From an uncultured Marvinbryantia sp. (GTDB lineage Bacteria; Bacillota; Clostridia; Lachnospirales; Lachnospiraceae), in NCBI GenBank assembly GCA_934394985.1, contig CAKRRF010000041.1, positions 1 through 20,106 of the forward strand: 20,106 bases of DNA, given 5' to 3'. A program made the position numbers and the translations under genes. Positions 96 through 20,106 of this stretch are shown here, piece by piece. Position 1 is the first letter of the stretch. Each line of letters starts with the position of its first letter. The notes under the pieces are model-generated. The model made no database searches. It worked only from the letters and a program-made list of their open reading frames with translations, and was not told the origin of the DNA.

Positions 96-111
96 ACAAT
101 TCCTCCCTTCT

Positions 112-1299: not shown

Positions 1300-1314
1300 A
1301 TCTCTATTCTCTCC

Positions 1315-2328: not shown

Positions 2329-2369
2329 CACGATCCCCTCCATTCATCATGTTTTATAAATCTTATTCC

Positions 2370-2405
2370 AGTATAGCAAACTCAGCAACAGAATACCAGT
2401 CTGGT
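2370..2405 (-). promoter_or_regulatory. Putative promoter and operator of the iolG-like/alcohol dehydrogenase unit
   Basis: An extended -10 (TG-C-TATACT) ends at 2370, about 40 bases upstream of the start codon. The -35 position (2393-2398, TGGTAT) is poor and lies inside a perfect interrupted palindrome, ACCAG-T-CTGGT, at 2395-2405. The spacer holds TTGCTGAGTTTGC (2376-2388), almost identical to an element in the promoter at 6305-6333. A weak -35 overlapped by a palindrome suggests an activator-dependent promoter. Inference only. Confidence 0.5.
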
Positions 2406-2422
2406 CAGAGCCGTTCTCACTT

Positions 2423-2464
2423 AAAAAAACGTCCGTTTCAGACTTTCCTGAACACAGACGTTTT
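2423..2464 (-). terminator. Intrinsic terminator after the APC permease gene
   Basis: On the minus strand AACGTC...TTCAG pairs with CTGAA...GACGTT (about 14 bp with one bulge, 6-base loop) and is followed directly by seven T residues. It starts a few bases after the permease stop codon and separates that operon from the iolG-like unit. Confidence 0.85.
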
Positions 2465-2467
2465 CTG

Positions 2468-3877
2468 TTATCTCCACAGGCCTCTCCGCTTGCGGATCGT
2501 ATAATACATGCTGTTTTCCATGGCCATAACTTTCTGAATTGGCACGCTTTTGAATACCGGCATCTTCATCTTGATACGAATCCAGAAGAAGGAATATATA
2601 CCAAGCACCAGAAAGGTGATGCCGGTGACCAGCCAGATCATCATGCGTTCGGTCGGATCGGTAGAGATGTTCAGAATCATATATACGGTTCCTGCAATAC
2701 CGACACACGGAAACAATGGTCCACATGGCACTTTGAAGGATCGCGGTGCCTTTGGCAGGCGGTGACGCAGAATCAATACATCCAGATGTGCAAAGATATA
2801 AGAGATCATCCAGAACACCGAGCCTACAAGAATCAGGAAGGAAATGGCTTCGGAGGATCCATCACTGAGTGCCGCAAATACAAATATAAACACGCTGACG
2901 AAAATCACACCGAAGAATGGCACACCGTGTTTATTGGTTTTCGCAAAGATTCTTGGCATCATATTCATTTTCGCCATGCCCTGACAGATTCCTGCCAGTC
3001 CGTTGACGGTGGAATTCTGAGTACTGACTACAGCCAGTGCCGCTACAAAAGTCATCCAGACCTTGCCGGAAGATCCCAGCAAATTTTCACCATACAGCAG
3101 ATGCGGTGCTGCGGAAGCTTCCAGTTCGCCCCATGGTGTATAATTGTGAAAACCAAGCACCATGACAGACTGTACCAGACAGATCAGAGCCAGCCCAATC
3201 ATCATACCAAGTGGTACGTTTCGTTTTGCATTTTTCACGTTTTTAGATACCGGGATGACATATTCTGCTCCGATGAAAAGCCAGAATGCTACGGCCACCA
3301 TAGATACCACTTCTTTCCAGCTGCTAACCATGCTGTATGGCTGTTGTACCATTTCTCCAGTTCCCAGCCCCAGCATACCGATGGTTCCCATAATCAGCAT
3401 GGAGCCTACCAGCAGAAACGCTACCAGATCCTGTATTTTTGCGAACATATCTACACCATAGAGATTAGCAATCATCACCACAATGGTCATGACCAATGTA
3501 TACAGAAGACTTGGTATCGGCAAATGGATCGTAGATGCCATCGCATAAGAAAAAATAGAGGCTTCCACACCGGAGGACATGATGTTACAGATCAGATATC
3601 CACCTACCATGGAAATCAGTGTAGGAAACGGTCCGAGACAGGCCAGTGTATACTGAGCAAGTCCCCCTGTGGTATTTGGCATCAGTGCATTAAGTTCGGA
3701 AAGAGATGCTACCGTGGTCATATTCAGGAGACAGGCAATTGCCATAGCTCCGATAAACACTACCCCAATGCTTCCGGCACCCTGTCCAAGTGATACTAGG
3801 CAACTGGTCGCTATAACCAGACCTACGGAAATAGAGACAACGCTTCTCAATCCCAGAGTTCTGTCTTTTTCTTCCAT
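2468..3877 (-). CDS. APC-superfamily amino-acid permease
   Basis: A 469-residue, very hydrophobic membrane protein with about 12 predicted transmembrane segments. The N-terminus LGLRSVVSISVGLVIATSC has the TM1 helix break typical of amino acid-polyamine-organocation (APC) transporters. The size and the loop between TM8 and TM9 (GMAKMNMMPRIFAKTNKHGVP, in two parts across 290-320) are also typical of the family. It should import an amino acid or amine by proton or sodium symport or by exchange. It is the last gene of the OCD-AraC-PII-APC operon, 16 bases after the P-II gene, with GAGGAG about ten bases before its ATG. The link to P-II and to amino-acid oxidation genes suggests it imports the substrate of this pathway; which one is unknown. 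Confidence 0.88.
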   Translation of the reverse strand: MEEKDRTLGLRSVVSISVGLVIATSCLVSLGQGAGSIGVVFIGAMAIACLLNMTTVASLSELNALMPNTTGGLAQYTLACLGPFPTLISMVGGYLICNIMSSGVEASIFSYAMASTIHLPIPSLLYTLVMTIVVMIANLYGVDMFAKIQDLVAFLLVGSMLIMGTIGMLGLGTGEMVQQPYSMVSSWKEVVSMVAVAFWLFIGAEYVIPVSKNVKNAKRNVPLGMMIGLALICLVQSVMVLGFHNYTPWGELEASAAPHLLYGENLLGSSGKVWMTFVAALAVVSTQNSTVNGLAGICQGMAKMNMMPRIFAKTNKHGVPFFGVIFVSVFIFVFAALSDGSSEAISFLILVGSVFWMISYIFAHLDVLILRHRLPKAPRSFKVPCGPLFPCVGIAGTVYMILNISTDPTERMMIWLVTGITFLVLGIYSFFWIRIKMKMPVFKSVPIQKVMAMENSMYYTIRKRRGLWR

Positions 3878-3893
3878 ATGTACTCACTCCTCG

Positions 3894-4238
3894 TTATAAA
3901 GCATCAATTCCCTCATCACCTGTACGCACCCGAATCACATTGGTGATATCGTATACAAAAATCTTTCCGTCACCAATATGTCCGGTATAAAGTTCCTGCT
4001 TGATCAGTTCTACAATAGCCGGTACTTTTGACTTTTCCACCACCACTGCAATCTGCTGTTTCGGAAGGAGCTCCATCTCATAGTTTTCTTCCACTTCATA
4101 TTCCTTGGTACCTTTTTCAATACCACATCCCAGTACCTGTGTTACCGTCATACCACGAACCCCAGCCTTACTTAAAGCTGATTTCAGTCCATTAAACTTT
4201 GACATACCTGTAATGATTTCTATTCTCGATAATTCCAT
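3894..4238 (-). CDS. P-II family nitrogen-regulatory signal protein (GlnB/GlnK-like)
   Basis: The 114 residues match P-II length. The nucleotide-binding B-loop TGHIGDGKIFV is at 85-95 and the C-loop RVRTGDEG at 103-110; LLPKQQIAVVVE (57-68) closes the T-loop. P-II trimers bind ATP/ADP and 2-oxoglutarate and control transporters or enzymes. The T-loop (residues 37-60) has the canonical length, but the position equivalent to the uridylylated Tyr51 of E. coli GlnB is Glu48. The sequence around it (KEYEVEENYEME) is strongly acidic, so classical uridylylation is unlikely. The ATG lies one base after the AraC stop codon, and the gene precedes an APC permease rather than the usual AmtB ammonium channel. 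It may gate that permease. Confidence 0.9.
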   Translation of the reverse strand: MELSRIEIITGMSKFNGLKSALSKAGVRGMTVTQVLGCGIEKGTKEYEVEENYEMELLPKQQIAVVVEKSKVPAIVELIKQELYTGHIGDGKIFVYDITNVIRVRTGDEGIDAL

Positions 4239-4239
4239 A

Positions 4240-5052
4240 TTACCTCACCTTCCTTTTCTCACAAATCTGTTTTTTATACTTCTCCGGTGTGGTTCCTGCA
4301 AACGCACGAAAATCCTTCAGCATATGTGACTGATCGTAATAGCCACAGTTCAGTGCAATTTCTTCGCTGTCTGCTGCCTTTGGTGCTGCCGTAATTTCAC
4401 TTAGAAATACCTGAAACCGAATGAAGCGTTCAAATTCCTTGGGTGAAATCCCATGAATCTGTTTGAAAATTCTTCGAATATAACATTCTGAATAACCGGT
4501 TTCCCTGCTTAGCATTCCGATGGTGATATTTCCTTTTGTAGCATAAATACGCTGTCTCATATATTCCTCCAGTGTATAGGAGCTGTCCCTGACACTGCTT
4601 TTTTGTTTCTCAGACAGATAGGTCATCAATATCTGCGCTCTCTGATTTACATCAGAGGCTTCTGCTATTTTTTCCGTCAGGCCTGCTCCATAATCATTCT
4701 GACTGATCTCTACATCCGCATTGACCACATCCTGAATGGACAAGTTGTCTGGAAGAATACATCTTCCAGGTAAAAATCTGGCTCCAAAATAATATCTGCC
4801 ATCTTCAAAATCCCAATCCTTTGCTTTCAGAACCGTTCCACCAATCAATATTTTTACATCTTCTTCCCCGATCCCAAAGACAAGATCCGTGCTTCCATCT
4901 GGCACCGCTTTAAAACAACTCTGTGTCTGATCTTTCACCTGAAATTCATAAAAGCTGGAAATTCCCATCCGTCTGTTCAGAATTTCTTTATAATCTTTTG
5001 CATCCAGTCTAAGGTACGGCTGAACCGGATTAACAACCTTCTTTTCGTTCAT
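4240..5052 (-). CDS. AraC-family transcriptional regulator (pathway regulator)
   Basis: A 270-residue protein from the ATG at 5052, which has AGGAG eight bases upstream; an in-frame ATG at 5127 lacks this and would overlap the upstream gene. The C-terminal third (about 180-265) is an AraC double helix-turn-helix: TIGMLSRETGYSECYIRRIF, then GISPKEFERFIRFQ, then the second HTH with NCGYYDQSHMLKDFRAFAG and TPEKYKK. The N-terminal half, with PDGSTDLVFGI, resembles the DUF6597-type sensor seen in some AraC proteins. It lies between the ornithine cyclodeaminase-family gene (50-base gap) and P-II (one base), so it is made with the pathway it probably controls. The paired elements at 6268-6309 and 2376-2388 are candidate targets. 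Confidence 0.9.
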   Translation of the reverse strand: MNEKKVVNPVQPYLRLDAKDYKEILNRRMGISSFYEFQVKDQTQSCFKAVPDGSTDLVFGIGEEDVKILIGGTVLKAKDWDFEDGRYYFGARFLPGRCILPDNLSIQDVVNADVEISQNDYGAGLTEKIAEASDVNQRAQILMTYLSEKQKSSVRDSSYTLEEYMRQRIYATKGNITIGMLSRETGYSECYIRRIFKQIHGISPKEFERFIRFQVFLSEITAAPKAADSEEIALNCGYYDQSHMLKDFRAFAGTTPEKYKKQICEKRKVR

Positions 5053-5102
5053 AATCCCTTCTCCTGTGCATGTTTTGCAGCATAATCCGGGATTGGTCTC
5101 TC

Positions 5103-6230
5103 CTATGCCATTTCTGGTTTCTCCCATAATGGAAGCTTGATTCCGATTCCCATTTTTACTGCATTACGGTATACCGTACCGCCCCATGCAATATCTTCTA
5201 CCGGCATACCTCCTACGGAGTAAACAATGATCTCATCATCACTTTCCCGTCCCGGGTGTCGTTTTTCAATGATATCTGTGATATCTATCATATCTTCTGC
5301 CTTGATTTTTCCGTCATGTTTTAAATCTGTGAATTTCGTTCCGATGATCTGTACCTGTGGATATGTCGGATATGGATACTCTTCTTCCCATGCTTCGTAC
5401 AGCTTGGAATTATCTACCACCAGCTTACAGCCTGCCAGAAAATCATCATCAAATCTGGCTGCAGATGGCATACTGATCAACGCTCCTTTTTTTATCCAAT
5501 CCCCACTGATATATGGGAAGGAAGATACATCATCTTTTACTGTTGTGGTAAAACTGATAATATCACTGTCTCTGACTGCTGCTTCTACCGTATCGCAGAC
5601 TTCTATCTGCTTAATCTGTGGAAATTCTTCTTTTACAAACTTTACAAACGCATCCAGAGATCTCTGGCTTCTTCCTTTGATCTTTACCGTATCCACCTGC
5701 GGGCAGACACTGACAAATGCAGCCAGCGATGTCTTACCCATGACACCCGGGCCAATAACAGATACTACTTTTGCATCCTTGCGTGCCAGGTATTTTGCAC
5801 CCACACCAGGAATTCCTCCGGTACGATATGCACTTACCAGATTGGCTGACATCAGTGCCAGTGGTGCACCAGTATCTTTGTCATTTAACATCATCATCAA
5901 AATGGATCTCGGCAGGCCTTTTTTCTTATTTTCGACGTTCGATCCATACCACTTCATACCCGCCATCTGATATCTTCCGCCGAGGTAGGCAGGCATGGCC
6001 ATGAATCTGCGGTCATCTGCATTCTTCGGCATGCCTTCAAACTGCGGATCATCCGGAAACATAATCATGCAGCCATGAGAATTATGATTTGCCCCACCCA
6101 TCACGTAATCACCTTTATACAAGGTGATGAGCAGATCCTCCATCACTTCTACACAGGAGGTCATGTCTTTGACACCCGCTTTGATCATATCTTCTTCACT
6201 TAAATATAAAAAATCAATTTTTGTATTCAT
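5103..6230 (-). CDS. Ornithine cyclodeaminase/mu-crystallin family protein ('tyramine oxidase subunit B' type)
   Basis: A 375-residue NAD(P)-dependent protein of the OCD/mu-crystallin family. Visible features are the substrate-site Lys93 in MAGMKWYGSN, SAYRTGG (133-139), the dinucleotide-binding VIGPGVMGKTSLAAF (158-172), and ISFTTTV with VVDNSKLYEAW in the NAD domain. Relatives convert ornithine to proline, reduce cyclic ketimines, or act as alanine dehydrogenases. Database entries of this length in Lachnospiraceae are often labelled 'tyramine oxidase subunit B', a name I would not treat as a function. It has its own promoter and AAAGGAG eight bases before the ATG. Its place directly after an amine/amino-acid dehydrogenase suggests it handles the imine or amino-acid product of that complex. 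Confidence 0.85.
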   Translation of the reverse strand: MNTKIDFLYLSEEDMIKAGVKDMTSCVEVMEDLLITLYKGDYVMGGANHNSHGCMIMFPDDPQFEGMPKNADDRRFMAMPAYLGGRYQMAGMKWYGSNVENKKKGLPRSILMMMLNDKDTGAPLALMSANLVSAYRTGGIPGVGAKYLARKDAKVVSVIGPGVMGKTSLAAFVSVCPQVDTVKIKGRSQRSLDAFVKFVKEEFPQIKQIEVCDTVEAAVRDSDIISFTTTVKDDVSSFPYISGDWIKKGALISMPSAARFDDDFLAGCKLVVDNSKLYEAWEEEYPYPTYPQVQIIGTKFTDLKHDGKIKAEDMIDITDIIEKRHPGRESDDEIIVYSVGGMPVEDIAWGGTVYRNAVKMGIGIKLPLWEKPEMA

Positions 6231-6267
6231 TTAAATGTCTCCTTTGCTGAATCTATCATTTTCTGAA

Positions 6268-6309
6268 GCATACTCAGCAATCGAAAACCTTCAACTTTAT
6301 GCTGAGTAT
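6268..6309 (-). promoter_or_regulatory. Inverted-repeat operator candidate at the OCD operon promoter
   Basis: ATACTCAGCA (6270-6279) and TGCTGAGTAT (6300-6309) are perfect 10-bp inverted arms separated by 20 bases. The distal arm overlaps the -10 box and the proximal arm lies downstream in the leader. A site placed like this suits a repressor or an autoregulating AraC protein, which the operon itself encodes. A stem-loop in the leader RNA is the alternative. Confidence 0.55.
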
Positions 6310-6333
6310 AGCACGCAGAATATTATGTGTCAC
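6305..6333 (-). promoter_or_regulatory. Sigma-A-type promoter of the OCD-AraC-PII-APC operon
   Basis: The minus strand reads GTGACA (plus 6328-6333), a 17-bp spacer, then TATACT (plus 6305-6310), with TGC directly before the -10 (extended -10). Each hexamer is one mismatch from consensus. It lies about 75 bases before the start codon at 6230, in the only sizeable gap between the dehydrogenase genes and this operon. Confidence 0.75.
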
Positions 6334-6382
6334 ACTGAAATAAGTGGAGTTCTTTATGCATTTTCCGAATTATTTTTATTTC

Positions 6383-7510
6383 CTAGATCACTGCCTTGAA
6401 CCGATCGTAGCGAAATGCTGACAGATCCAGAGTCGTCTTTTCTTCTCTGGCTGTTTCAGCTAACAGAGTTCCCACAATTGGGGAAATTCCAAAGCCATGT
6501 CCAGTGAAAGCGCAGGCTGCAATCAATCCTGGCACTTCCGCGATCTCACCAAGTATCGGAACGCCATCTGCAGACACATCCTCATATCCTGCCCAGGTAC
6601 GGACAATCTTGGCATCTGCCAGCTTCGGAATATACTTCATGATTCCCCGGCAAATACATGGTGCCGTAATGCTGGAAGTCATATGATGTCCATTGTCTTT
6701 GTTCACGGACTCAAATCCAGAAGCACCGCCAAATACAAAGGAGCCATGATCGGTCTGGTGTCCGTAAAAGTCTGCGTCGGCTGTTCCCAGCATCTGTGGA
6801 AACATTGGAGCTTCTGCCTCTGTCACCAGTGCCTCTATCAGTTCTTTTGACATCGGAATGTCAATTCCCACACTTTCCAGAATCCAGCGGCTTTCATAAC
6901 CTGCTGCCACAATGATTTTTTCCCCTTCAAATATATTCTTTCTGGTAACGACTCTCCTTGCTTTTCCTCTTATAGTCTGAAGTTCTGTCACTTCTTCGCC
7001 AGTATGAAATTGCACACCGAGTTTTCTTGCCGCCCGGTAATATCCAAGGGTGGTCAGCAGAGGATTGGCATGTCCGTCTGTTGCACACCAGCTGGCTCCG
7101 ATCACTTCATCACTTAAGTAAGGATTGATGTCACGAACCTCTTCACCATTGATCATTCTTACATCCAGGCCACAGGCTGTGGCGCGATCTGTCAGCCCCT
7201 GTAAAATCTCCAAATGATGCTCAGTCTTACCAAGTCTTAAATTTCCTTCTTTGTGATATTCTACGTTAATGCCCAATTCTTCCGACAGAAATGGCCACAG
7301 ATTGGTTACTGCATACATGGCAAGAGGCAGTTCTCTTGGATCTCTTCCTGACTGACGAACACCACCGCCATTTCTGGCAGATCCTCCGTTTCCTATATTC
7401 TCATCTTTATCAAGGACAATGACAGAAGTTCCTTTTTTTGCAAGATAATAGGCAGCTGCACAACCGATGACACCGCTTCCTATAATGATAACATCCGCTG
7501 TTCTACTCAT
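6383..7510 (-). CDS. DAO-type FAD-dependent amino-acid/amine oxidoreductase subunit
   Basis: 375 residues of the D-amino-acid oxidase (DAO) flavoprotein family, closest in layout to HcnC, opine oxidase subunit B, sarcosine oxidase beta and archaeal L-proline dehydrogenase beta. The FAD Rossmann motif is IIIGSGVIGCAAAYYLAKKG (8-27). The second FAD block SARNGGGVRQSGRDP is at 44-58, and the C-terminal VPILGEIAEVPG...FTGHGFGISP block contacts flavin. This is the likely substrate-oxidising subunit. The ATG at 7510 overlaps the end of the BFD gene (ATGAGTAG) and has GGAAGG eight bases upstream, so translation is coupled; an in-frame start 21 bases earlier is less well supported. Substrate specificity cannot be told from sequence. 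Confidence 0.9.
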   Translation of the reverse strand: MSRTADVIIIGSGVIGCAAAYYLAKKGTSVIVLDKDENIGNGGSARNGGGVRQSGRDPRELPLAMYAVTNLWPFLSEELGINVEYHKEGNLRLGKTEHHLEILQGLTDRATACGLDVRMINGEEVRDINPYLSDEVIGASWCATDGHANPLLTTLGYYRAARKLGVQFHTGEEVTELQTIRGKARRVVTRKNIFEGEKIIVAAGYESRWILESVGIDIPMSKELIEALVTEAEAPMFPQMLGTADADFYGHQTDHGSFVFGGASGFESVNKDNGHHMTSSITAPCICRGIMKYIPKLADAKIVRTWAGYEDVSADGVPILGEIAEVPGLIAACAFTGHGFGISPIVGTLLAETAREEKTTLDLSAFRYDRFKAVI

Positions 7511-7832
7511 CTTCTTCACCTTCCTTTGCAAAAATCTTCATTTCCAGAGGACGCATCGGTGCTCTGGACGTGGCCGGTGTCAGGACTTCCGGTGAAACAC
7601 CAAGCTCTCTTGCCACAATTCCTTTCACCAGCTTTGCACAGGTCTGCCCCTGGCAAAGCCCCATACCACTGCGTAAATATCTTCGGATCTCGGTAATGGT
7701 ATACATACCGTCATGTACCGCTCTGCGAATCTCTCCCTTGGTGACTTCTTCACATCTGCAGATGATCCGTTCATCGTCCGGTTCCGGTTTATATTCTCCT
7801 ATATCTATGGTTCTGTCATATATGTTCTCCAT
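7503..7832 (-). CDS. BFD-like [2Fe-2S] electron-transfer subunit
   Basis: A 109-residue protein with a bacterioferritin-associated-ferredoxin-type [2Fe-2S] site: C25-x-C27 in IICRCEEVTKGEI and C60-x4-C65 in GMGLCQGQTC. The C-terminal APMRPLEM resembles the tail that follows this domain in HcnB/OoxA-type subunits. In those complexes the BFD domain is fused to the FAD/NAD-fold subunit; here it is a separate gene between the two flavoproteins. GGGAGG lies about seven bases before the ATG. Its last codons overlap the start of the DAO gene. Its role is most likely to pass electrons between the DAO subunit and the larger flavoprotein. Confidence 0.9.
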   Translation of the reverse strand: MENIYDRTIDIGEYKPEPDDERIICRCEEVTKGEIRRAVHDGMYTITEIRRYLRSGMGLCQGQTCAKLVKGIVARELGVSPEVLTPATSRAPMRPLEMKIFAKEGEEDE

Positions 7833-7865
7833 CTTTTACCTCCCATCGATAAGACAATTCTGTCA

Positions 7866-9464
7866 TTACCGTTTCAAGCTGTCTGTTTCATGCGCCATGT
7901 AGAACCTTGCCTTCATGGCATACTCTGCCGGAACTTTGATGGTCAGCAGGTTTGTATGATCGAAGGCTTTTGTGCTCCTGACGGATACCACTTCTGCCTC
8001 GCAGATCTTCTGACCATTTCTGCCAAGTCCATATCCCTTATCTCCCGGTTCCGGAAGTGGAAGGAATTCATACGGAATGGTGACCGTAGCAAATCCCGGT
8101 TCATAAGTCTCATCCACCAGGAAAATAGCCTGTCCTGAGCAGGATGCCACACACATACCACACCCGATACAATCCACCGCTTCATCTACTGCCGGAAGGG
8201 AAGTGATATGCTCACCGATCTTGATGCAATGTTTTGGACATGCATCCTGACACGGATTGCACGGAATATTCTGTGTACATTCCATCACCGGATGTACACC
8301 TGCTCTGTGTGTAACGCCAGGGAAGCGTTCTATTTCTTCATCTGTTATAAACCCATGCTTCAGAAGATTCATGGAGATCTCAATCCCCTCTTCTGTCTTC
8401 TCGATAAGTTTTCCCCTGTTCTTCGGTGCAAACATACCCTGACGCAATTCTTCCAGCGCAGCTTCGTTTTTCTGTACCTCTTCTTCCAGTTCTGCTGTTT
8501 CAATATATCCAAGATAGTTTGCAGCTGCAATTCCGGCAATGCGGCCTTCTATCATAGCGGAACTTGCCTCTTCTATTCCGGATACATCTCCTGCTACAAA
8601 AATTCCTTTTATCGAAGTTTCACCATACTCGTCTACGATTGGTACCTGTCCACCTCGTTTTGGATTATCTTCCATCTCGCAACCAGCCATTTTCAAAAGC
8701 TGTGACATCGGGGAAAGTCCTACTGCCAGACAAATGGTATCCACATCAAAATGTTTTTCTGTTCCCGCCAGGAACTGAAAGTGACTATCCACCTCCGCAA
8801 TGGTAACTCCAGTTACGTAATCCGTTCCTTCGGCTTTTACAATTGTATGGGATAGATAAAATGGTACACCTGTTCTGGCTACTTTTGCCGCATGCACACC
8901 GTATCCTCCGATTCTCGGTGCCGCATCTACCAGTGCCACCACATCACAACCGCACTGTTTTAACTGAAAACTAACCACCAGCCCTACATTTCCGCTTCCC
9001 AGCATAAGGATCTTATTTCCTGGTTTTACTCCGTGCAGATTCATCATAGTCTGTGCTGCACCGGCTCCAATCACACCCGGAAGTGTCCAGCCATCGAAGG
9101 TAACCATATTTTCTGCAGCACCTGTCGCAATGATGATGGCATTTCCTTTGTAATGAAATACTTCTTCTCCCTTACGGACTACCAGTTCTTTGTCCTGATA
9201 CATACCGACCACGGCAGCATTTAATTCCACCTTCACTCCGACTTTATCAGCCTCTTTCAGAAGTTCCTCGCCAATCACGAATCCTCTTATCCTGGCTTTA
9301 TGTTCTTTTGATCCAAAAAACTTATGAATCTGCTTAAATAACTGTCCACCTGGTTTTTCATTTTCATCAAATACCACTACCTTCAGACCTCTTTTAGCCG
9401 CCTCAATAGCAGCTGATAATCCGGACGGTCCGGCTCCTACAACGATCAAATCATATCTCTTCAT
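7866..9464 (-). CDS. FAD/NAD(P)-fold oxidoreductase with two [4Fe-4S] motifs (dehydrogenase alpha-type subunit)
   Basis: 532 residues from the ATG at 9464, which has AGCAGGAG seven bases upstream; the open frame extends 47 codons further but overlaps the preceding gene and lacks a site. The FAD motif is VVGAGPSG (8-15), the ATG motif IIATGAAE is at 111-118, the second Rossmann motif LGSGNVG at 155-161, and the third FAD block GIFVAGDVSG lies near 305. The C-terminal part holds ferredoxin-type cysteines: one set from C396 to C413 (ECTQNIPCNPCQDACP) and a second C432-x2-C435-x2-C438-x3-C442. This matches the alpha subunit of HcnB/OoxA/proline dehydrogenase-type complexes, with a 4Fe-4S module added. 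It probably carries electrons onward to a cellular acceptor. Confidence 0.9.
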   Translation of the reverse strand: MKRYDLIVVGAGPSGLSAAIEAAKRGLKVVVFDENEKPGGQLFKQIHKFFGSKEHKARIRGFVIGEELLKEADKVGVKVELNAAVVGMYQDKELVVRKGEEVFHYKGNAIIIATGAAENMVTFDGWTLPGVIGAGAAQTMMNLHGVKPGNKILMLGSGNVGLVVSFQLKQCGCDVVALVDAAPRIGGYGVHAAKVARTGVPFYLSHTIVKAEGTDYVTGVTIAEVDSHFQFLAGTEKHFDVDTICLAVGLSPMSQLLKMAGCEMEDNPKRGGQVPIVDEYGETSIKGIFVAGDVSGIEEASSAMIEGRIAGIAAANYLGYIETAELEEEVQKNEAALEELRQGMFAPKNRGKLIEKTEEGIEISMNLLKHGFITDEEIERFPGVTHRAGVHPVMECTQNIPCNPCQDACPKHCIKIGEHITSLPAVDEAVDCIGCGMCVASCSGQAIFLVDETYEPGFATVTIPYEFLPLPEPGDKGYGLGRNGQKICEAEVVSVRSTKAFDHTNLLTIKVPAEYAMKARFYMAHETDSLKR

Positions 9465-10159: not shown

Positions 10160-10909
10160 TTATATTTCCACCAACTGCTTCTCCTCTTCTATCATTTTAA
10201 TCTGCTCTGCAGTATTCAGAACAATAATCTCTGACATTGTTTTTTTTGCTAACTCAGGATTAGCTTCTCTCCACGCTTTTGCTGTAAATCCAAACAATGC
10301 CACATTTAATATATCCGCTTCTTCTGCATATGCCAGCCATTGTAGATTCTCTCTATAATTCATCCGCGGAATCAAATATTTTTTTACTGCGTCCGTCTGA
10401 ATCAAATAATTATTTTTAGTCAAAAATCGTTTAGCATTCCATTCACTTTGCTCTAAATTATTTTCTTCTTCCTTCAACCGCTGGAATTCTTTTATCAAAT
10501 ACAATTTAAAAACCGGACTGATTGCAGATGCGAATTCAAAGGCAATGTCTTTATGAGCATACGTACCGCCATATTTTCCACGCTTTACATATAATCCTAT
10601 CGCATTCGTTTTATTAATCCATTCTGCAACGCTTAATACAAATGTATGTAAACCTGCTTCAGATTTAAAGTGGTCGAATTCGACCACTTTAAAATCAGGA
10701 TTATAAATCATTTCCCACGTTCCTAAAAATTCTAATGTATTTCTATTTCGCAGCCAGTTTTTCACAACATCGGCACTACGTGATTCGCCTGTTTTAGCTT
10801 TTGCAATATCCGTAATACAAATATAATCATCCAATTTTTGTTCTGAAATCGAAATTGGTACATCTTGTACATTAATTATCCTATTCTTCATCCACTTTTT
10901 CCTTTCCAT
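10160..10909 (-). CDS. KilA-N domain protein
   Basis: 249 residues from the ATG at 10909, with GGAAGG five bases upstream; an ATG at 10891 is a possible alternative. The KilA-N DNA-binding domain covers about residues 15-125: YICITDIAKAKTG, VVKNWLRNRNTLEFLGTWE, NPDFKVVEFDHF, SEAGLHTFVLSVAEWINKTN, GKYGGTYAHKDIAFEFASAI, then KLYLIKEFQRLKEEE. The domain occurs in phage and large DNA-virus proteins and in many bacterial island genes; its function is poorly known. The C-terminus (ILNVALFGFTAKAWREANPE) fits bacterial members, but the end looks shortened and runs into recombinase-like sequence. A truncated HTH gene overlaps its start, and a 30-bp palindrome lies inside it. Confidence 0.88.
   Translation of the reverse strand: MERKKWMKNRIINVQDVPISISEQKLDDYICITDIAKAKTGESRSADVVKNWLRNRNTLEFLGTWEMIYNPDFKVVEFDHFKSEAGLHTFVLSVAEWINKTNAIGLYVKRGKYGGTYAHKDIAFEFASAISPVFKLYLIKEFQRLKEEENNLEQSEWNAKRFLTKNNYLIQTDAVKKYLIPRMNYRENLQWLAYAEEADILNVALFGFTAKAWREANPELAKKTMSEIIVLNTAEQIKMIEEEKQLVEI
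10664..10693. repeat. Perfect 30-bp palindrome inside the KilA-N gene
   Basis: The 15-base arm TTTAAAGTGGTCGAA is followed directly by its exact reverse complement, with no spacer and an EcoRI-type GAATTC centre. It encodes the KVVEFDHFK stretch of the KilA-N domain, a conserved part of the family. The amino-acid constraint does not by itself force a perfect palindrome. Confidence 0.9.
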
Positions 10910-11039
10910 CAAAACCTTCCATTTTTATCCTGTATGCCAATAATCTTAAAACATAATCCGGCATTTTCCTTGTTCCTCTTTCCCATTCCGTTACGGTTCT
11001 GTAAGGAATTCCGAATAGTTTAATCTGGCAAGCTACTTT
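10881..11039 (-). pseudogene. 5'-truncated HTH (XRE-like) gene upstream of KilA-N
   Basis: A 52-codon frame without a start codon, bounded upstream by an in-frame TGA at 11040-11042. It encodes QIKLFGIPYRTVTEWERGTR, then KMPDYVLRLLAYRIKMEG. This is the recognition-helix half and tail of the small helix-turn-helix proteins common in Lachnospiraceae; the first half (usually a TG(L/M)TQ helix) is missing. Its stop codon overlaps the KilA-N start by 29 bases, so HTH and KilA-N were probably one operon. The break lies next to the repeat block that starts at 11057, implying loss by insertion or deletion there. Confidence 0.7.
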
Positions 11040-11056
11040 TCAAACACAATCGTCCC

Positions 11057-11229
11057 GAGGATGTCAAGTCATTGCTACAAACTTTTTGATCTTTTTTCCT
11101 TCGATTTTTCCCATAAAACCGTTGTTTTGGAACGGAGGACGTTATATTGTTGTCACAAAATCAGTGGGGAGGATGTAACGTCATTGCTACAAGTCATATA
11201 GTAGAGGACGTTACATTATTGCTACAAAA
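11057..11229. repeat. Repeat block 1: four copies of a ~25-bp element
   Basis: Copies lie at 11057-11081, 11135-11160, 11169-11192 and 11204-11229, all in the same orientation. Each begins GAGGA(T/C)GT, has a semi-palindromic core (GTAACGTC or CGTTACAT), and ends ATTG followed by CTACAAA or TCACAAAA. The last copy ends exactly at the stop codon of the recombinase-like fragment. The arrangement resembles the multiple terminal repeats of IS21-type insertion sequences, but no transposase is present, so this would be a solo end. Other than these repeats and the flanking fragments, 10940-11230 holds nothing coding. Confidence 0.8.
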
Positions 11230-11436
11230 TCAGGCAAGTGCTTTCCACTCCACCTCCACCCGTCCATCATCATACACATATATCCCATCCACATACTTTT
11301 CAAGCATCTCCTCTGTCAGTTTCTCATACCCCAGATACTCCATCATCTGTTCCATCGGAATATTCTTCTTCAGCAAGATTTCTTTCTCGCCGCAGATCAG
11401 TTCTTCCAGATCTAAAAAAACATTATTTACCGACAA
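11230..11436 (-). pseudogene. Serine-recombinase-like C-terminal fragment
   Basis: An open frame of about 68 codons with only a TTG available as start and no ribosome binding site. From LEELICGEKEILLKKN it matches the frame at 19850-20106 through YLGYEKLTEEMLEKYV and GIYVYDDGRVEVEWKALA. The 'LT-x-EM-x8-I-YVYDDGR-VEVEW' ending is like the C-terminal end of large serine recombinases, after the coiled coil. The homology starts near 11412, only about 30 bases after the stop codon of the adjacent Gfo/Idh gene. I read it as a truncated recombinase left at a recombination junction. Confidence 0.55.
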
Positions 11437-13804: not shown

Positions 13805-13901
13805 GCGCCGCAAATAAGCTTTTTATTATTCTTTGTTGTTTTCCACTGGAACATGCAGTATAATTCACTTGGGAATGCTCTGTGCTGTACACAAGCTTCC
13901 C

Positions 13902-14040
13902 GAGGATGTCAAGTCATTGCTACAAAAAATATGCGGCTTTTTTGCCACGAAAATGGCTTAAAACCGCATATTTCTGTATAGAGGACGTTATATAATTGTC
14001 ACAAAATTGGTGGAGAGGATGTAACGTTATTGTCACAAAA
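13902..14040. repeat. Repeat block 2: three copies of the ~25-bp element
   Basis: Copies at 13902-13926, 13981-14006 and 14015-14040 are in the same orientation as block 1. The first copy is identical to the first copy of block 1 over 25 bases, including the preceding CCC. The following pair repeats the order 'GAGGACGTTATA..., GGTGG/GTGGG, GAGGATGTAACGT...'. The segments between the first and second copies differ. The two blocks are therefore paralogous copies of one non-coding element, flanking the Gfo/Idh-AraC cassette. Outside them, 13805-14088 holds nothing recognisable. Confidence 0.8.
13921..13973 (-). terminator. Putative intrinsic terminator of the ATPase-nuclease operon
   Basis: AAATATGCGG (13927-13936) and CCGCATATTT (13964-13973) are perfect arms, with an inner GCCA/TGGC stem. 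Read on the minus strand the hairpin ends in a run of six T residues. It lies about 115 bases after the nuclease stop codon, inside repeat block 2. Confidence 0.55.
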
Positions 14041-14088
14041 CTTAATATTATCCATTCTATGCAAGCAACAGTACAGAGAATTCTCAAA

Positions 14089-14712
14089 TCAGCAAATACG
14101 CAAATTTCCTATTAGCTTATCTCCCTCTTCTGTTCTCTGCATCTTAACTGCAACATGTTGAAACTTCATCACAGCTCCAACATCTACGCTAATAATATTA
14201 TTTTCCCATTCTTTCTCTGGTGCTGGTGGCATTGGTTTTCCTAAAGGTGCAACCATTATTTTAGGATCTTCACTTCTATCTGTATTCCAAAATCCAGTAC
14301 TCTCATACGTTGTATATGTCCTAATCTCATCAATATGTATTCCCAATACCCCTTCCAATGCACGAACATTAAAATAACTAGCACGTATTTTTTGTTTTAT
14401 TTCATGCCATTTTTTGTTATCAACCTTACTCTTCATTTCAATAAGATGCAATATCCATTTCTCTTCCTTTTTTTGAAGCAAAACATGATCAACACTTCTT
14501 CTTAATTTAAATGGACTTTCTTTCTTAAGAAAATTGCACTTTCCTTTATGGTCATAATCCTCACTACATAAATTATCCCCTTGTACATCTACGTGCAATT
14601 TGCTTCTTCCTGTCTCACTTTTTTCCTCTAAACAATAGGAATTGCTAAAGGGCAGGAAAAAATTATCTTCTAAAAAATTATCAATTCCATACTGTATCCG
14701 TTCTTCAATCAT
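14089..14712 (-). CDS. Putative PD-(D/E)XK-type nuclease partner of the AAA ATPase
   Basis: A 207-residue protein I do not recognise as a named family. The middle part has the spacing of a PD-(D/E)XK nuclease core: SVDH with Asp75, a short loop, then the hydrophobic strand WILHLIEMKSK with Glu92-x-Lys94, and a following lysine-rich helix (KKWHEIKQKIRASYFNVRAL). An upstream acidic residue such as Glu15 could complete the site. Pro-rich APLGKPMPPAPEKEW is near 165. The ATG lies three bases after the ATPase stop codon, and its AGGAGG site is inside the end of the ATPase gene, so the two proteins are translationally coupled and probably act together. The nuclease assignment is inference from a short motif. 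Confidence 0.6.
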   Translation of the reverse strand: MIEERIQYGIDNFLEDNFFLPFSNSYCLEEKSETGRSKLHVDVQGDNLCSEDYDHKGKCNFLKKESPFKLRRSVDHVLLQKKEEKWILHLIEMKSKVDNKKWHEIKQKIRASYFNVRALEGVLGIHIDEIRTYTTYESTGFWNTDRSEDPKIMVAPLGKPMPPAPEKEWENNIISVDVGAVMKFQHVAVKMQRTEEGDKLIGNLRIC

Positions 14713-14715
14713 TTA

Positions 14716-16044
14716 TCAGTCCTCCTGAAATGCGTATACTTCCTCAACTATTTTTTCAAGAGCATTATTAAATGTTGGAACAACAAATCCATATTTTGTT
14801 GCCTCCAATGGTATCAATCTTGTTTTCCCACTATTTTCCGTAACAAACTGATACATTTGAATATCTTCTCTAGAAAGAAGATCTTCCTTTTTATATCCAT
14901 ATTCCTGCTGCAACTCATTGCTTCGTACATGATTTTTTAATTTCATCATATTATTTATATGTTGCAAAATAGTATCGCTATGAGTAGTAATCCATACCGG
15001 TATACCCAAATTCATCATATTAATAATCAGTCTAGCCATTTTTTGTTGTAACTCTGGATGTAAATGTGCTTCTGGTTCTTCAATAATCATTGCTTTAAAA
15101 TTAATGCCGGATTTCAGTACCAAAAGTAATGGTGAAATTTCCGAAACAATAGATGATGCAACATACAATGGAATTTCTTTATCACTTCCCTCCGGCTGAT
15201 ATTGGATAACTGGTAACATATCTTTTTTTACTGACAAATTTCCTTTTGTCATATTTTTTTCAATATATTCAATTATGCCTGAATACTTTCTGCTATCTTT
15301 TTTATTAATTTCAAACTTCGTTATCAGCTGTAAGAAATCTACATATGGAAGTGTAAGAGTACTTGTATTTTCATGTAATTCTGCCGAAAAACTAATTTGT
15401 AACGAATTTTCAATCAGCTGCGAGTATGTAAGCATAAAGCCTGTTCTCGAAGCCGGAAGATAAATTGGCTCGCCAATTCTTCTTCCCTTTACAATTGGTG
15501 TATATAGTGGAGCAGCAATACCCTCCATTAATAAATTCCAACAAATATACGCATTCATCCGAAGCAACTCATCCCTATTAGGTAAATCTACTTCCGGAAA
15601 TTTAATATAATTGTTTGTTACAGAATATCTAGATCCTGATTTTTCCCAGACAATTTTAATAGGTTTAGTTCTTTCATAATTAGTAATCTTTAATTTTTCA
15701 ACCTCAACATCGTAATTAAAAATCTTTCTAACTAAAGACTTTTTTTGAGTATTTAACAATTCATTAAACCAATTTATATATAGTTCCATATCATTCTCAG
15801 ATAATTCAATCTCTGTATTGATATGTGCTTTTAACCAATCTTCACACTGTTTATATACTCTGGCTTCTGAAGGCTTCTTGGGAAAAATATCTTTTCCTAA
15901 TGTTAAAATCCCCCATAATATACTCATTAAATAACTTTTTCCACTATTATTATCACCCACAAAACACATCAACGGTGCAATAGTAACATCCGCACTTTTT
16001 ATTTTTGCAAAATTTTCAACATGGAGTGTCCATTTTTTATTCAT
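14716..16044 (-). CDS. OLD/RecF-like AAA family ATPase (AAA_15/AAA_21 type)
   Basis: 442 residues from the ATG at 16044, which has AAGGGAG six bases upstream; the frame extends 15 codons further without support. Walker A is GDNNSGKS (30-37). A signature-like VASSIVSEISPLLLVLK is at 295-311, Walker B AMIIEEPEAHLHPELQ at 318-333, and the H-loop WITTHSD at 351-357. This is the ABC/SMC-like ATPase of OLD, PARIS AriA, Gabija and retron-associated proteins. It lacks a fused TOPRIM domain; instead a small putative nuclease gene follows with overlapping translation signals. The pair has the form of a two-gene anti-phage system, though it matches none that I can name. Confidence 0.9.
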   Translation of the reverse strand: MNKKWTLHVENFAKIKSADVTIAPLMCFVGDNNSGKSYLMSILWGILTLGKDIFPKKPSEARVYKQCEDWLKAHINTEIELSENDMELYINWFNELLNTQKKSLVRKIFNYDVEVEKLKITNYERTKPIKIVWEKSGSRYSVTNNYIKFPEVDLPNRDELLRMNAYICWNLLMEGIAAPLYTPIVKGRRIGEPIYLPASRTGFMLTYSQLIENSLQISFSAELHENTSTLTLPYVDFLQLITKFEINKKDSRKYSGIIEYIEKNMTKGNLSVKKDMLPVIQYQPEGSDKEIPLYVASSIVSEISPLLLVLKSGINFKAMIIEEPEAHLHPELQQKMARLIINMMNLGIPVWITTHSDTILQHINNMMKLKNHVRSNELQQEYGYKKEDLLSREDIQMYQFVTENSGKTRLIPLEATKYGFVVPTFNNALEKIVEEVYAFQED

Positions 16045-16290
16045 TCCAGTCTCCCTTCTCGTACATATTGCTCTTATATATTTCCCCAAATATACGCTTT
16101 TTATACTTTAATTATTCTTTTGTTTCTCATGAATTATATCCATTTTAATAGTAACATATGCACTTTTCTTTTTCAACAACTCCACTTATCACATTCTCTT
16201 CAAGTAGCGTATGGTATGCTCTCAACAATACTTAATTGTCTCTAGGATGTCATGTCATTGTCATACAGTATAAGAGCTCAACAATAATAT
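16045..16290. other. AT-rich intergenic region with a solo repeat copy between SIR2 and ATPase genes
   Basis: A solo copy of the ~25-bp element (16243-16267, AGGATGTCATGTCATTG then TCATACA) lies here. It is flanked by perfect 10-bp direct repeats CTCAACAATA at 16221-16230 and 16277-16286. A TATAAT on the minus strand (around 16135) could be the -10 of the ATPase operon, but no good -35 is spaced from it. No gene is seen. Confidence 0.5.
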
Positions 16291-19200
16291 TTACTCATCT
16301 CCTGTAGTATCAAAAACAACATTTCTTATTTCTATAAATTCATTTTTATTCTCACTAATTCTTTTCCACCCATCTACAATATCAGATTTTATTCCTCTTA
16401 CATACAGTTCTTTCGCAATCTTGCAAGATATTATTCGACATCTTAATTTATACAAAGCTTCTTGTTCAGAATCTGTTTGTTTTATTACCGTCTCATCTTG
16501 AAGCTTTAGCAAACATACAAGTAAAGTCTGTATTTCTGTTTTTAAAACAATTTCATTTTTTATTATTGCATAACACAATTTCAATGCAGCCATATTGTGA
16601 AGTATTTCACTACTTATCACTCTATATATCGAAATCCTAAAAAGCATATTTGAACACTTCAACAACATGTCATTGTTTTGTAACTTAAAATCATTTATAT
16701 AAAGTACATCATAAAAATCTTTAATCAACCCCAACTCTTGCTCATTACTTAACCAAATTTTATTTTGAAAATCTTCAAAATAAAATTTGCTATCATCAAC
16801 AAAACATGCTTCTATCATGTCAATTGCAATGGAATTTTTATACAGCTCGCTTAAAGCTTCAAAATATGCATACACCTTTTCTTTTTCTGTCTCGGATAAA
16901 TCAATATTTTTACTCTCACGTAAAATAATCAATCCCATAACAATTAAAAAGCTCTGACGAATTCTTTCACTAGCATTTGGTTGATTTCTCTCAACCCATG
17001 ATTGGTTAGTTTTCACTAAATTCGTCAGCACTTCCAACGCTTCTTCCAAATTAATTTTACTAATATCTATATCATTAAGAATTCCTATTAAGTCTCTATA
17101 ATTATTTCCTCCAGCCGAAAACATTTGCGTATTTGAATCTGATTTCATTCTTTTTAATGTATCTTCAAATATTTCTTTTTTATTTTTCTCATACTTTTGT
17201 TTATCCAACACATATAATATAGACTTATTTTCTAGTGTTTCTTCTTTTTCTAATACCTTACATAAATATCTCAAATCCTCCTCATTTAGTATAATAACTT
17301 GTGCAAGTATAACCAAACGATTCACTGCAGCTTGTCTTTTTTCATTTTCTGCTTCTTTTATTGTTTGTTTAATTTGGAAAAGTATCCTGTTATATATTTC
17401 AATATCAAGCACATATTTTTCTCTCGGTTTTGATATAAATACTATTGGATCGCAATAATCACTCATTCGATCTACATCCACCGGAAATTGTAGTATTTTC
17501 TCGATTCGATTTTCTTGATCTTGAAGTGAAAATGCTTCAAACAATCCTTTAAATATTTTTCGAATACCCTTAAAATTTGTTCGAACATTACTTAAGCACA
17601 AATCAAGAATTGAATCGAAAATTTCATCCAATATATTAATTGAACATTTATAACATAATCTCGCTATAATATCTGGAAGAACTACTGCTGACTGCTCATA
17701 TATAGACTTTGCAAAAAAGAAATTCTCTGGCTTAACATTTTTCATCACAATCTGAAATATTCTTAAATATTCTTTCGCAATATCATCAACTTCTTCTTGT
17801 GATAACTCATACAACTTAACTCGTCCAAACATTAAATCTATATGTTTATTATCCTGTGCTATTAAAATTTGCATAAGGCACCAGTGTGGATAATATGGTG
17901 CTAATAGTTTTACTGTGCTGTGTAATCCTTTAGTATTAGTAACATTCTGCAACCGAAATGGATGACCTGTTTGTTCTAGAAACCTCAAATATTCCAGTGC
18001 ATAAAACACATTTGAATTATCCCTTCCCATATGCATTGTATATGTAGAGGACAAATCGAAATTATCTTTTGTTTCAAAACTCTTATTACCTTTTTCTTCT
18101 GTATTTAAATATAAACAATACTTATCATTTTCATTCCACCAAGATACATCACTTTCATGTATACATTCTTCTGTCTCATCTACAATATTTCCTTGTCTGA
18201 TAAAATTAATTAATGATACAATACTTTCTTCTATCGAAGACAAATATTCGTTTCCACTTGCTTTGACCAACTGTTTCCTCACCAATGTAAGTACATCCGA
18301 TAGGATTGCATCCGCTTTTGATATTTCTCCAATAAGTGCATACATATTGGCTTTAACCAAAGGCCAGTACATATCACCGTTTACCAAATTCCACGAATCC
18401 AGCATTCCCGCTAATTTTTCAGCTTGAAATCTAAATAGCTGTTTCCGACAATCGCACGCATATAAAAATTGCTTATTATCATAGTCTAAATATGCATCTT
18501 TTATTTTTTCATGACATGCTTCATACTTTTCCCATTCTGCCAACTCTCTATAAGAACGTAAGAGATGCAAATATATTACTTGTTCTTTGTATTCTAATTC
18601 TGTTCCAAAACTGTCAACTAGTTCATCCCCTTCTTTTTTCTCCAATACATTCAAAAACTGATCCACTACCTGAGAAAGAATCGGTCTTCCTGCGATATCC
18701 ATAAACTTTACATATTCATACATATAGTTTACTTGATCTGTGAATGAAATATGTTCAAATTCATTCATATTATCGAGTTCATTTAATACATAACTTACCT
18801 TATTTTTCATTTTCCACGGTAAAAAAATCCAACCCGGATATGATTCATTTAATTTTTTCATTATTTCTGTTTTTTTCACAAAATCAGTATCATACTGTAA
18901 ATGCAACTGTCTTAAATCAAACCAATTATCTTTTCTCCGCTTTTCTTCCACTCTTAATTTTAATTCTTCTAAAAAAGAATTCAATCTATCACCAATATTT
19001 TTGTCTGGCCATAGTTCTTGTAAATCAATAACAATAATATTACGTTCAAAAAGTAATTTACGTTTTGCCTCAGCAATATGAGTAACTGATACCATATATA
19101 TCTTTTGCGAGCTACTCTTTCCAAGATTATCATGTATCCATCCAATCCACTTTATGAAATTAGGATCCTCACAAGAAAAACCTAACATGCAAAATACATT

Positions 19201-19776
19201 CTCTAATAATGCTTGCTGAACTGTATTAACCATTGCAGCAAACTTCACTGGATATGTTCTATAATCTTCTTCGGTAATTATAAATGGACGGTATGATGGA
19301 AACGAACCATGTAATTTTAAAATTCTGGGAGCATTGTTACTATTGACTAAATCTTCTTGGCAAATGACAACATTATATCGACGGTTTGTTACCTTATCTG
19401 CTGCACGCTCTAATAAAGTATCATAATTTGTAGTGAATACATCCTTCCATGGCATTTCCATTAACTTCACATACACTTCAGAAGGAGCGTATTCCAAATC
19501 CGGTACTGCATCTTTAATTATTTTTTCCAATTTGGGACGTCCTACCGTAATCTCTACCTCCTGAGCAAGCCTCAGAGAACTATTATATTGCTTCCCTGGC
19601 CCTTCTTTCCCATAAACTGTTTCATAAAACAAATCAGAAAGCTCATTCCAATTTAAGAATTTTTTATCTGTAATAGAAACCTTTTCAGCATTTTTTGAAA
19701 ATCCAGCCCCTACCATCAATGCAGCATGATTCTCAGACAAAGCTTCTGCAATTTCTCTAATATAATTCATATTCAT
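16291..19776 (-). CDS. Large SIR2-domain protein, defence-associated sirtuin-like
   Basis: A 1,161-residue protein. The N-terminal 270 residues are a SIR2-like NADase domain: MVGAGFS (21-27), VFTTNYDTLLE with Asn117, ILKLHGS with His156, and LGFSCEDPNFIKWIGW (198-213). Asn117 and His156 correspond by motif to the catalytic Asn/His pairs of DSR2 and ThsA. The rest, about 890 residues, is helix-rich, Lys/Glu-rich and without motifs I recognise, suggesting TPR- or HEAT-like repeats that could sense phage proteins. In defence sirtuins activation depletes NAD+ and aborts infection. The ATG at 19776 has AAAGGTGAG just upstream. It is a single gene without an evident partner; it is longer than B. 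subtilis DSR2 (about 1,005). Confidence 0.88.
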   Translation of the reverse strand: MNMNYIREIAEALSENHAALMVGAGFSKNAEKVSITDKKFLNWNELSDLFYETVYGKEGPGKQYNSSLRLAQEVEITVGRPKLEKIIKDAVPDLEYAPSEVYVKLMEMPWKDVFTTNYDTLLERAADKVTNRRYNVVICQEDLVNSNNAPRILKLHGSFPSYRPFIITEEDYRTYPVKFAAMVNTVQQALLENVFCMLGFSCEDPNFIKWIGWIHDNLGKSSSQKIYMVSVTHIAEAKRKLLFERNIIVIDLQELWPDKNIGDRLNSFLEELKLRVEEKRRKDNWFDLRQLHLQYDTDFVKKTEIMKKLNESYPGWIFLPWKMKNKVSYVLNELDNMNEFEHISFTDQVNYMYEYVKFMDIAGRPILSQVVDQFLNVLEKKEGDELVDSFGTELEYKEQVIYLHLLRSYRELAEWEKYEACHEKIKDAYLDYDNKQFLYACDCRKQLFRFQAEKLAGMLDSWNLVNGDMYWPLVKANMYALIGEISKADAILSDVLTLVRKQLVKASGNEYLSSIEESIVSLINFIRQGNIVDETEECIHESDVSWWNENDKYCLYLNTEEKGNKSFETKDNFDLSSTYTMHMGRDNSNVFYALEYLRFLEQTGHPFRLQNVTNTKGLHSTVKLLAPYYPHWCLMQILIAQDNKHIDLMFGRVKLYELSQEEVDDIAKEYLRIFQIVMKNVKPENFFFAKSIYEQSAVVLPDIIARLCYKCSINILDEIFDSILDLCLSNVRTNFKGIRKIFKGLFEAFSLQDQENRIEKILQFPVDVDRMSDYCDPIVFISKPREKYVLDIEIYNRILFQIKQTIKEAENEKRQAAVNRLVILAQVIILNEEDLRYLCKVLEKEETLENKSILYVLDKQKYEKNKKEIFEDTLKRMKSDSNTQMFSAGGNNYRDLIGILNDIDISKINLEEALEVLTNLVKTNQSWVERNQPNASERIRQSFLIVMGLIILRESKNIDLSETEKEKVYAYFEALSELYKNSIAIDMIEACFVDDSKFYFEDFQNKIWLSNEQELGLIKDFYDVLYINDFKLQNNDMLLKCSNMLFRISIYRVISSEILHNMAALKLCYAIIKNEIVLKTEIQTLLVCLLKLQDETVIKQTDSEQEALYKLRCRIISCKIAKELYVRGIKSDIVDGWKRISENKNEFIEIRNVVFDTTGDE

Positions 19777-19823
19777 GTTCTCACCTTTCTTTCAACATAA
19801 AAACATTATCTAAATCTATATTT

Positions 19824-19853
19824 ATTCTACCATAACACATTAAATATTGTCAT
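19824..19853 (-). promoter_or_regulatory. Putative promoter of the SIR2 gene
   Basis: The minus strand reads ATGACA (plus 19848-19853), an 18-bp spacer, then TAGAAT (plus 19824-19829) preceded by TGG, an extended -10. It is about 50 bases before the start codon. The -35 box overlaps the stop codon of the upstream recombinase-like gene. Confidence 0.5.
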
Positions 19854-20106
19854 CGTGCTAATTTAAGTGCCCTCCATTCCACCTCCACTCTCCCGTCATC
19901 ATACACATATATTCCCTGCACATATTCTTCCAGCATTTCTCGTGTCAACTTCTCATAGCCTAAATACTTCAACATCTGCTCCACCGGAACATTTTTTTTC
20001 ATCAGAATTTCTTTCTCTCCGTTTATCAGTTCATCCAGTTCCTGTACACGTTTCTGCAGTCGTTCTCTTTCTTCTTCCAACTGCTTCTTGGCTTCCATAA
20101 ACTGGT
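19850..20106 (-). CDS. Serine-recombinase-like C-terminal end (runs off window)
   Basis: The frame is open to the window edge (…QF before the Met at 20098), so only the last 85 residues are seen. A charged coiled coil (AKKQLEEERERLQKRVQELD) is followed by ELINGEKEILMKKNVPVEQM, then YLGYEKLTREMLEEYVQ and GIYVYDDGRVEVEWRALKLA. A coiled coil followed by 'LT-x-EM...I-YVY-x-x-GR-VEV' is how many large serine recombinases end. It is homologous to the fragment at 11230-11436, about 8.5 kb away. If intact beyond the edge it could be the integrase or transposase that moved the island; the N-terminal catalytic domain must be checked outside the window. Confidence 0.55.
   Translation of the reverse strand, partial: QFMEAKKQLEEERERLQKRVQELDELINGEKEILMKKNVPVEQMLKYLGYEKLTREMLEEYVQGIYVYDDGRVEVEWRALKLAR

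Follow-up and report, generated by a model that had tools for sequence, protein, structure and literature searches.

The stretch of DNA analysed here comes from an uncultured Marvinbryantia sp. (GCA_934394985.1, contig CAKRRF010000041.1, positions 1-20,106) and is referred to throughout, at its whole length of 20,106 nucleotides, as the window; it carries two adjacent genes on the reverse strand, the first encoding an ABC ATPase of the OLD type and the second a small putative PD-(D/E)XK nuclease (Table 1). Judged from sequence comparison, the pair is an unlisted branch of the OLD-ABC ATPase + PD-(D/E)XK nuclease systems, and it shares a recently moved segment with a DSR2-like gene. Exactly 3 bases separate the ATPase stop codon from the nuclease ATG and the ribosome binding site of the nuclease gene lies inside the ATPase gene, an arrangement reported in a first-pass annotation of this DNA and borne out by both the list of open reading frames (ORFs) and the sequence, which suggests that translation of the two genes is coupled. 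The ATPase frame is open as far as 16089, where it begins with a TTG; the ATG at 16044, with its good ribosome site, is preferred as the start.

Motifs and fold of the two proteins

The 442-amino-acid (aa) protein has a Walker A motif GDNNSGKS (residues 30-37), a Walker B motif ending in EEPE (322-325) and an H-loop histidine (H355), the three motifs being those named at first pass, and the key residues of these motifs are among the invariant positions of 19 ATPase sequences (the window included), which comprise amongst others G30, N32, K36, R200, E323, P324, E325, H329 and H355. It is matched by the Pfam families AAA_15 (8.2e-23) and AAA_21 (2.7e-14), and with Walker A, an acidic Walker B, the H-loop and these two families all present it is an OLD-type ABC ATPase; a Pfam scan found no TOPRIM family within it. 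Its best PADLOC model is PD-T4-4_A (PDLC04033; 6.2e-41, 139 bits) followed by PDC-M47A (2.2e-30), with NsnB, AriA, PDC-M56A and GajA ranking lower. The AlphaFold2 model (mean predicted local distance difference test, pLDDT, 83.4) was compared with the PDB using Foldseek, where retron IA/Eco8, PtuA/Septu and Rad50-type ATPases were the best matches, with E-values down to 1.3e-10 and template modelling (TM) scores of only 0.3-0.5.

In the 207-aa protein a handful of residues point to a nuclease. When 127 sequences were thinned at 70% identity to a set of 45, the only fully invariant positions of the 207 were E30, G35, D75, E92 and K94, and D75, E92 and K94 are also invariant in a set of 30 sequences and in 16 more diverse ones; since this holds in all three sets, the D75 and E92-x-K94 spacing picked out at first pass is not a product of chance. 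An aspartate in register with a (D/E)xK motif, as is required of a PD-(D/E)XK enzyme, is thus supplied by D75, E92 and K94, together with E30, in 45/45 of the thinned sequences. A structural model had been proposed as a check, and the confident AlphaFold2 model (pLDDT 85.5) does resemble PD-(D/E)XK nucleases, which make up most of its closest solved folds, with modest Z-scores (maximum 6.1) that lie below the conclusive level. Searches of the PDB sequences with the nuclease profile gave 0 matches, and a fold search of BFVD gave none at E ≤ 0.001. The protein had been said to belong to no named family, and indeed it is matched by no PADLOC, Pfam or NCBIfam model, with 0 PADLOC families even at E ≤ 1.

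Table 1. Positions of the gene pair and of the features of its segment in the window.
Feature	Position	Strand	Basis or remark
OLD-type ABC ATPase, probable sensor/regulator, no TOPRIM	14716-16044	-	442 aa; ATG at 16044, stop 14716-14718
Putative PD-(D/E)XK nuclease, probable effector	14089-14712	-	207 aa; E30, D75, E92-x-K94
Ribosome binding site AGGAGG of nuclease gene, within ATPase gene	14720-14725	-	read from sequence
Ribosome binding site AGAAGGGAGA of ATPase gene	16050-16059	-	read from sequence
DSR2-like SIR2 defence protein, 1161 aa, separate system on same mobile segment	16291-19776	-	PADLOC Dsr2 1.8e-204
Large serine recombinase, C-terminal end, runs off window	19850-20106	-	DUF4368 1.7e-4, 22.2 bits (below cut-off 25); colinear with Clostridium sp. 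AT4 locus (L010)
Left edge of shared mobile segment	13899-14040	.	three AGGATGT/AGGACGT...ATTG repeat copies (13903, 13982, 14016); L010 homology starts sharply at 13899
Single repeat copy between DSR2 stop codon and ATPase gene	16244-16263	+	no mismatch to pattern

Linkage of the pair and its relatives

Relatives of the nuclease were sought in sets of 98, 398 and 397 genomes, in GTDB contigs (7 loci) and in viral contigs (2 loci), and hits were found in 5/98, 2/398 and 9/397 of the genomes, one genome (G001) being counted in each set and the first figure including a locus, L005, that was later dropped. Merging repeat fetches of the same places and leaving out L005 gave 15 distinct nuclease loci, and in 15/15 of them an ATPase gene lies directly upstream on the same strand, so that the same pair does recur in other genomes, which the first-pass annotation had suggested looking for. 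The spacing of the two genes, measured from longest-frame starts, ranges from 56 bases apart to an overlap of 32 and is at most 4 bases in 10/15; the ATPase of L003 is cut by the end of its contig, and the nuclease frame is broken in two of the loci. A broken nuclease frame beside an intact ATPase frame is seen at 10001-10616 of L007/L011 (Eubacterium ramulus strain 21) and at 10001-10623 of L012 (a Eubacterium metagenome-assembled genome). The L005 hit (E 3.9e-4) was rejected as a chance match, as the aligned frame contains a stop and no open frame there fits the family profiles (E-values in this check, in the partner checks and for the viral-contig loci below are for single loci and so refer to small search spaces); the neighbouring ATPase hit looks like an ABC protein of the transport type.

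The search was also run from the ATPase, and at E ≤ 1e-15 a set of 299 genomes yielded 14 matches that fall in 13 ATPase genes. Of these genes eight have a nuclease of the window type as their partner, one a PD-T4-4_B-like protein and three another protein of 225-234 aa, the last being cut by a contig end. These 225-234-aa proteins form a further unlisted partner group with a D..DxK pattern (L041 2282-2959, L042 661-1365, L043 786-1472), for which nothing better than 0.07 was obtained from Pfam, or better than 0.01 from PADLOC. The viral contigs yielded 89 ATPase loci, of which the 80 best were examined, many of them near-copies and two (L048/L049) repeating L006/L007; the ATPase profile gave E < 1e-25 in 53 of these 80, with a gene of 186-225 aa directly downstream in 47/53, and the six that have no such gene (L050, L056, L068, L070, L071 and L085) include some with truncated ATPase frames. 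The viral-contig partners in L053, L061 and L062 are weakly recognised by the window nuclease profile and are possibly a bridge between branches.

A tblastn search of phage and plasmid records with the nuclease found no match. So far the branch has been found mainly in Lachnospiraceae-type Clostridia, which is the group searched most: kinship was counted from G001, so that counts by family are those of G001's family, towards which the searches are weighted and the distribution therefore biased, and G001 shares little with the window beyond the mobile segment.

Further relatives of the ATPase were found in 33 plasmid and phage records, and in 8/8 of those inspected a gene of 176-210 aa lies directly downstream. 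PADLOC identifies 7/8 of these partners as PD-T4-4_B or PDC-M47B at E ≤ 1e-9, and the remaining one (L030) is matched only by PDC-M47B, at 1.8e-7. One of the records, Vibrio phage 1.202.O (L031, 1984-4015), has its ATPase and PD-T4-4_B-like nuclease between a repressor and an integrase gene, a likely position for defence cargo. When aligned, partners of the PD-T4-4_B/PDC-M47B type repeat the plan of the window nuclease, with an early glutamate, a central aspartate and (E/D)xK, and across 39 diverse partners D75 is the single position besides M1 that is kept in 90%.

When profiles were compared with hhalign, 11 partners that we grouped as PD-T4-4_B-type aligned with the window nuclease over 99 columns at a score of 53.2 (P 1.9e-7). 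Of 20 column shuffles run as controls none exceeded 17.0, and the reversed profile scored 11.3; another PD-T4-4_B-type comparison gave P 1.2e-6 over 38 columns. On this profile evidence the window nuclease is distantly homologous to the PD-T4-4_B-type nucleases. The claim does not extend to all partner nucleases, as scores were weaker for the L053 group (37.4), the L041 group (29.7, P 0.0012) and PDC-M47B (29.4, P 8e-4, from 2 sequences) and there was no link to the L054, L079 and L086 groups (P 0.03-0.41).

In a midpoint-rooted tree of 52 ATPases, a few rows of which are long, 12 ATPases of the branch and the viral-contig ATPase L050 form one clade (100/99), L050 being an exception in that it has no recognisable nuclease. 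The three ATPases with 225-234-aa partners join this clade (100/98), and the PD-T4-4 and M47 ATPases fall in a separate group with support of only 89/87.

The mobile segment and its neighbourhood

A SIR2 defence gene had been noted beside the pair at first pass and it proves to be DSR2-like, with a PADLOC Dsr2 match of 680 bits over residues 4-1154 and a match to the NCBIfam Dsr2 model (NF041819) of 1.1e-208 and 696 bits that is below the model cut-off of 1400. No DSR2 was found in a search of the viral contigs. The pair, the DSR2-like gene and the recombinase tail together make up a segment that is shared with Clostridium sp. AT4 (L010, NZ_LN999828.1), to which window 13899-20104 is 99.7% identical. 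Outside the segment agreement with L010 is limited to two short diverged repeats; positions 1-9000 of the window have only two short weak matches in the Clostridium sp. AT4 genome, match other genomes of G001's family at up to 71% and have no match at E ≤ 1e-30 in 17 genomes of G001's genus, so that the window is probably of that family and probably not of that genus. Because identity this high is confined to the segment and does not extend to the remaining sequence, the DSR2-like gene and the pair have been transferred recently between distinct genomes, and probably between genera. In L010 DSR2 is preceded by three serine recombinases in tandem (ORFs 15-1643, 1644-3299 and 3292-4863, with Resolvase and Recombinase domains), and the counterpart of the recombinase tail is the end of the third. 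No paper was found that combines three of the subjects serine recombinase, Lachnospiraceae, defence systems and DSR2.

The repeat at the segment edge, AGGATGT-ANGT-ATTG, is matched 8 times in the window when up to 3 mismatches are allowed, where 0.09 matches are expected; of the 8 the match at 6155 is probably due to chance, and it is present in L010, which has the same segment. It is conceivable, and would be unlikely in our estimation, that serine-recombinase elements add defence modules successively at the end site and that the pair is a separate cassette, lying behind DSR2 between the repeat at 16244 and those at 13903-14040. This is a minority reading because the repeat is absent beside the pair elsewhere: of 14 other pair loci (L006/L009 probably being one place) 13 lack any match, and the only one in L136 has 3 mismatches and lies ~3.6 kb from the pair. 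If true, such stacking would amount to a recombinase-driven assembly of defence islands with a nuclease branch that is invisible to current defence-finding models.

Elsewhere in the window, at 11044-11412, there is a diverged copy of the edge repeat (72-76%) followed by a recombinase tail (78.5%) with no cargo between them, probably the remnant of a second related element. Just outside this remnant is a KilA-N domain gene (10160-10912) that matches the PADLOC candidate PDC-S22 with 333 bits.

The first-pass annotation had also proposed that the pair be looked for next to known defence genes, and whilst the DSR2-like gene does adjoin the pair in the window, few defence matches were found in the flanks of 13 relative loci. 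PADLOC at E ≤ 1e-15 over 116 of the 120 ORFs listed there, a scan that covers the relatives and not the window's own segment and that has neither a random-position control nor a tally by locus, matched 18 models, each in one or two proteins; several of these, such as DndA/SspA and RecD, look in our judgement like housekeeping cross-matches. The same 116 proteins contain 131 Pfam families, and five flank proteins from other loci were assigned by Pfam to MatE, MMPL, a RecD2-type helicase, PriA and a sugar epimerase. It would seem that proximity to defence genes is not a general feature of the pair.

Known systems and proposed function

The design of the pair is already in print and the kind of system is known. 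WonAB, from the WASA-1 prophage of Vibrio cholerae, consists of an OLD-type ABC ATPase and a small PD-(D/E)XK nuclease and aborts infection by phage ICP1; both genes and their catalytic residues are required, WonB(K71A) being inactive, and the toxicity of WonB depends on active WonA, with translation stopping while genomic DNA stays whole, and RNA has been proposed as the target of WonB (PMC12137116). WonAB has been likened to PD-T4-4 and to the OLD-ABC ATPase + Novel REase operons of Krishnan et al. 2020, and placed in a broader family in which ATPases act as sensors and nucleases as effectors (PMC12137116; PMC12409358). Furthermore, OLD-ABC ATPases paired with PD-(D/E)XK nucleases occur near BREX (PMC12839542), and PD-T4-4 is listed with a PD(D/E)XK nuclease (PMC10952713) and is located in an integrative element (Vassallo et al. 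2022, PMC9519451).

Compared by published description, the window pair shares with WonAB a two-gene operon in which the ATPase is followed by the nuclease with neither TOPRIM nor helicase, and differs in that WonB has 16.1 kDa and its motif lysine at 71 whereas the window nuclease has 207 aa and K94, and in that WonAB has been described mainly from Gram-negative bacteria. With PD-T4-4 it shares gene order, a distantly homologous nuclease and an ATPase that is fitted best by the PD-T4-4_A model, but the nuclease fits no PD-T4-4_B model (E ≤ 1) and the ATPases of the branch are outside the PD-T4-4/M47 group. The PADLOC candidate PDC-M47 is similar in that PDC-M47A fits the ATPase and the pair at L033 shares order and motif plan, yet the window nuclease has no PDC-M47B match and the profile comparison is weak; no paper was found under the name PDC-M47. 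Anaerovibrio lipolyticus is a Firmicute. The Novel REase example that was modelled is from this species (PMC12137116), and the gene design of the OLD-ABC ATPase + Novel REase operons, known to us through the descriptions in PMC12137116 and PMC12409358, is shared with the window pair.

PARIS, Gabija and Septu/retron Ec78 also have an ABC ATPase of the OLD/PtuA type. Their partners are TOPRIM, TOPRIM + helicase, or HNH proteins, of which none was seen here. The effector of PARIS, AriB, is a TOPRIM protein whereas the window partner matches no family at all; Gabija has TOPRIM in its ATPase and a UvrD-like helicase, GajB, whereas the neighbours of the TOPRIM-free window ATPase are the 207-aa protein and the DSR2-like gene. 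The first description of the pair as an ATPase with an effector nuclease that is neither TOPRIM nor helicase is supported, but the form is not new, as WonAB, PD-T4-4 and the OLD-ABC ATPase + Novel REase operons all have it. No published description of the window branch was found in the literature covered, which included few subscription papers and preprints.

The pair is probably an anti-phage system that acts by abortive infection and belongs to the OLD-ABC ATPase + small PD-(D/E)XK nuclease kind, as a branch of its own that would work like WonAB and PD-T4-4. Both proteins would be made together from one operon, and an ATPase dimer would bind the nuclease and keep it controlled, with the ATPase as sensor and the nuclease as effector. 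A trigger made by the phage may then alter the ATP-driven state of the ATPase, upon which the nuclease would cut host or phage nucleic acid through E30, D75, E92 and K94 and a metal ion, and growth would halt before phage are produced. Complex formation, the trigger, the target, be it RNA or DNA, and defence itself are what we infer by analogy; RNA as the target is suggested by WonB only.

It is improbable that the pair instead works in the manner of restriction, the ATPase bringing the nuclease to invading DNA or placing it there for direct cleavage while the host survives. Most of the PD-(D/E)XK proteins among the fold matches act on DNA, and the ATPase fold is nearest to retron/PtuA and Rad50-type ATPases; however, neither a methylase nor a specificity gene is seen among the ORFs of the window, and WonAB, the relative that has been studied, aborts infection and leaves genomic DNA intact (PMC12137116). 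That the two genes are a toxin-antitoxin pair, the ATPase merely restraining a toxic nuclease in the service of the upkeep of the mobile segment, is very unlikely in our view. The segment that carries the pair was indeed transferred recently and has serine recombinases next to it, and related pairs of the PD-T4-4 branch are located on small plasmids, but the ATPase of WonAB is required for toxicity rather than neutralising it (PMC12137116), and the nuclease branch was found by tblastn in no plasmid or phage record. Least probable of all is that the 207-aa protein has a nuclease-like fold without activity and is a structural or DNA-binding partner; fold scores under the conclusive level would allow this, yet catalysis is indicated by the invariance of E30, D75, E92 and K94 in 45 sequences and by the recurrence of the D and E/DxK plan in other partner groups.

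As the PADLOC models give the nuclease no match, the system has probably been recorded as absent from genomes that contain the branch. Nucleases partnered with OLD-ABC ATPases vary more widely than the listed models cover, their constant part being a D..(E/D)xK core, and as this core is shared, the question of whether RNA or DNA is the target becomes testable across branches. The segment itself provides an example of the recent transfer of two systems, the DSR2-like gene and the pair, between distinct genomes.
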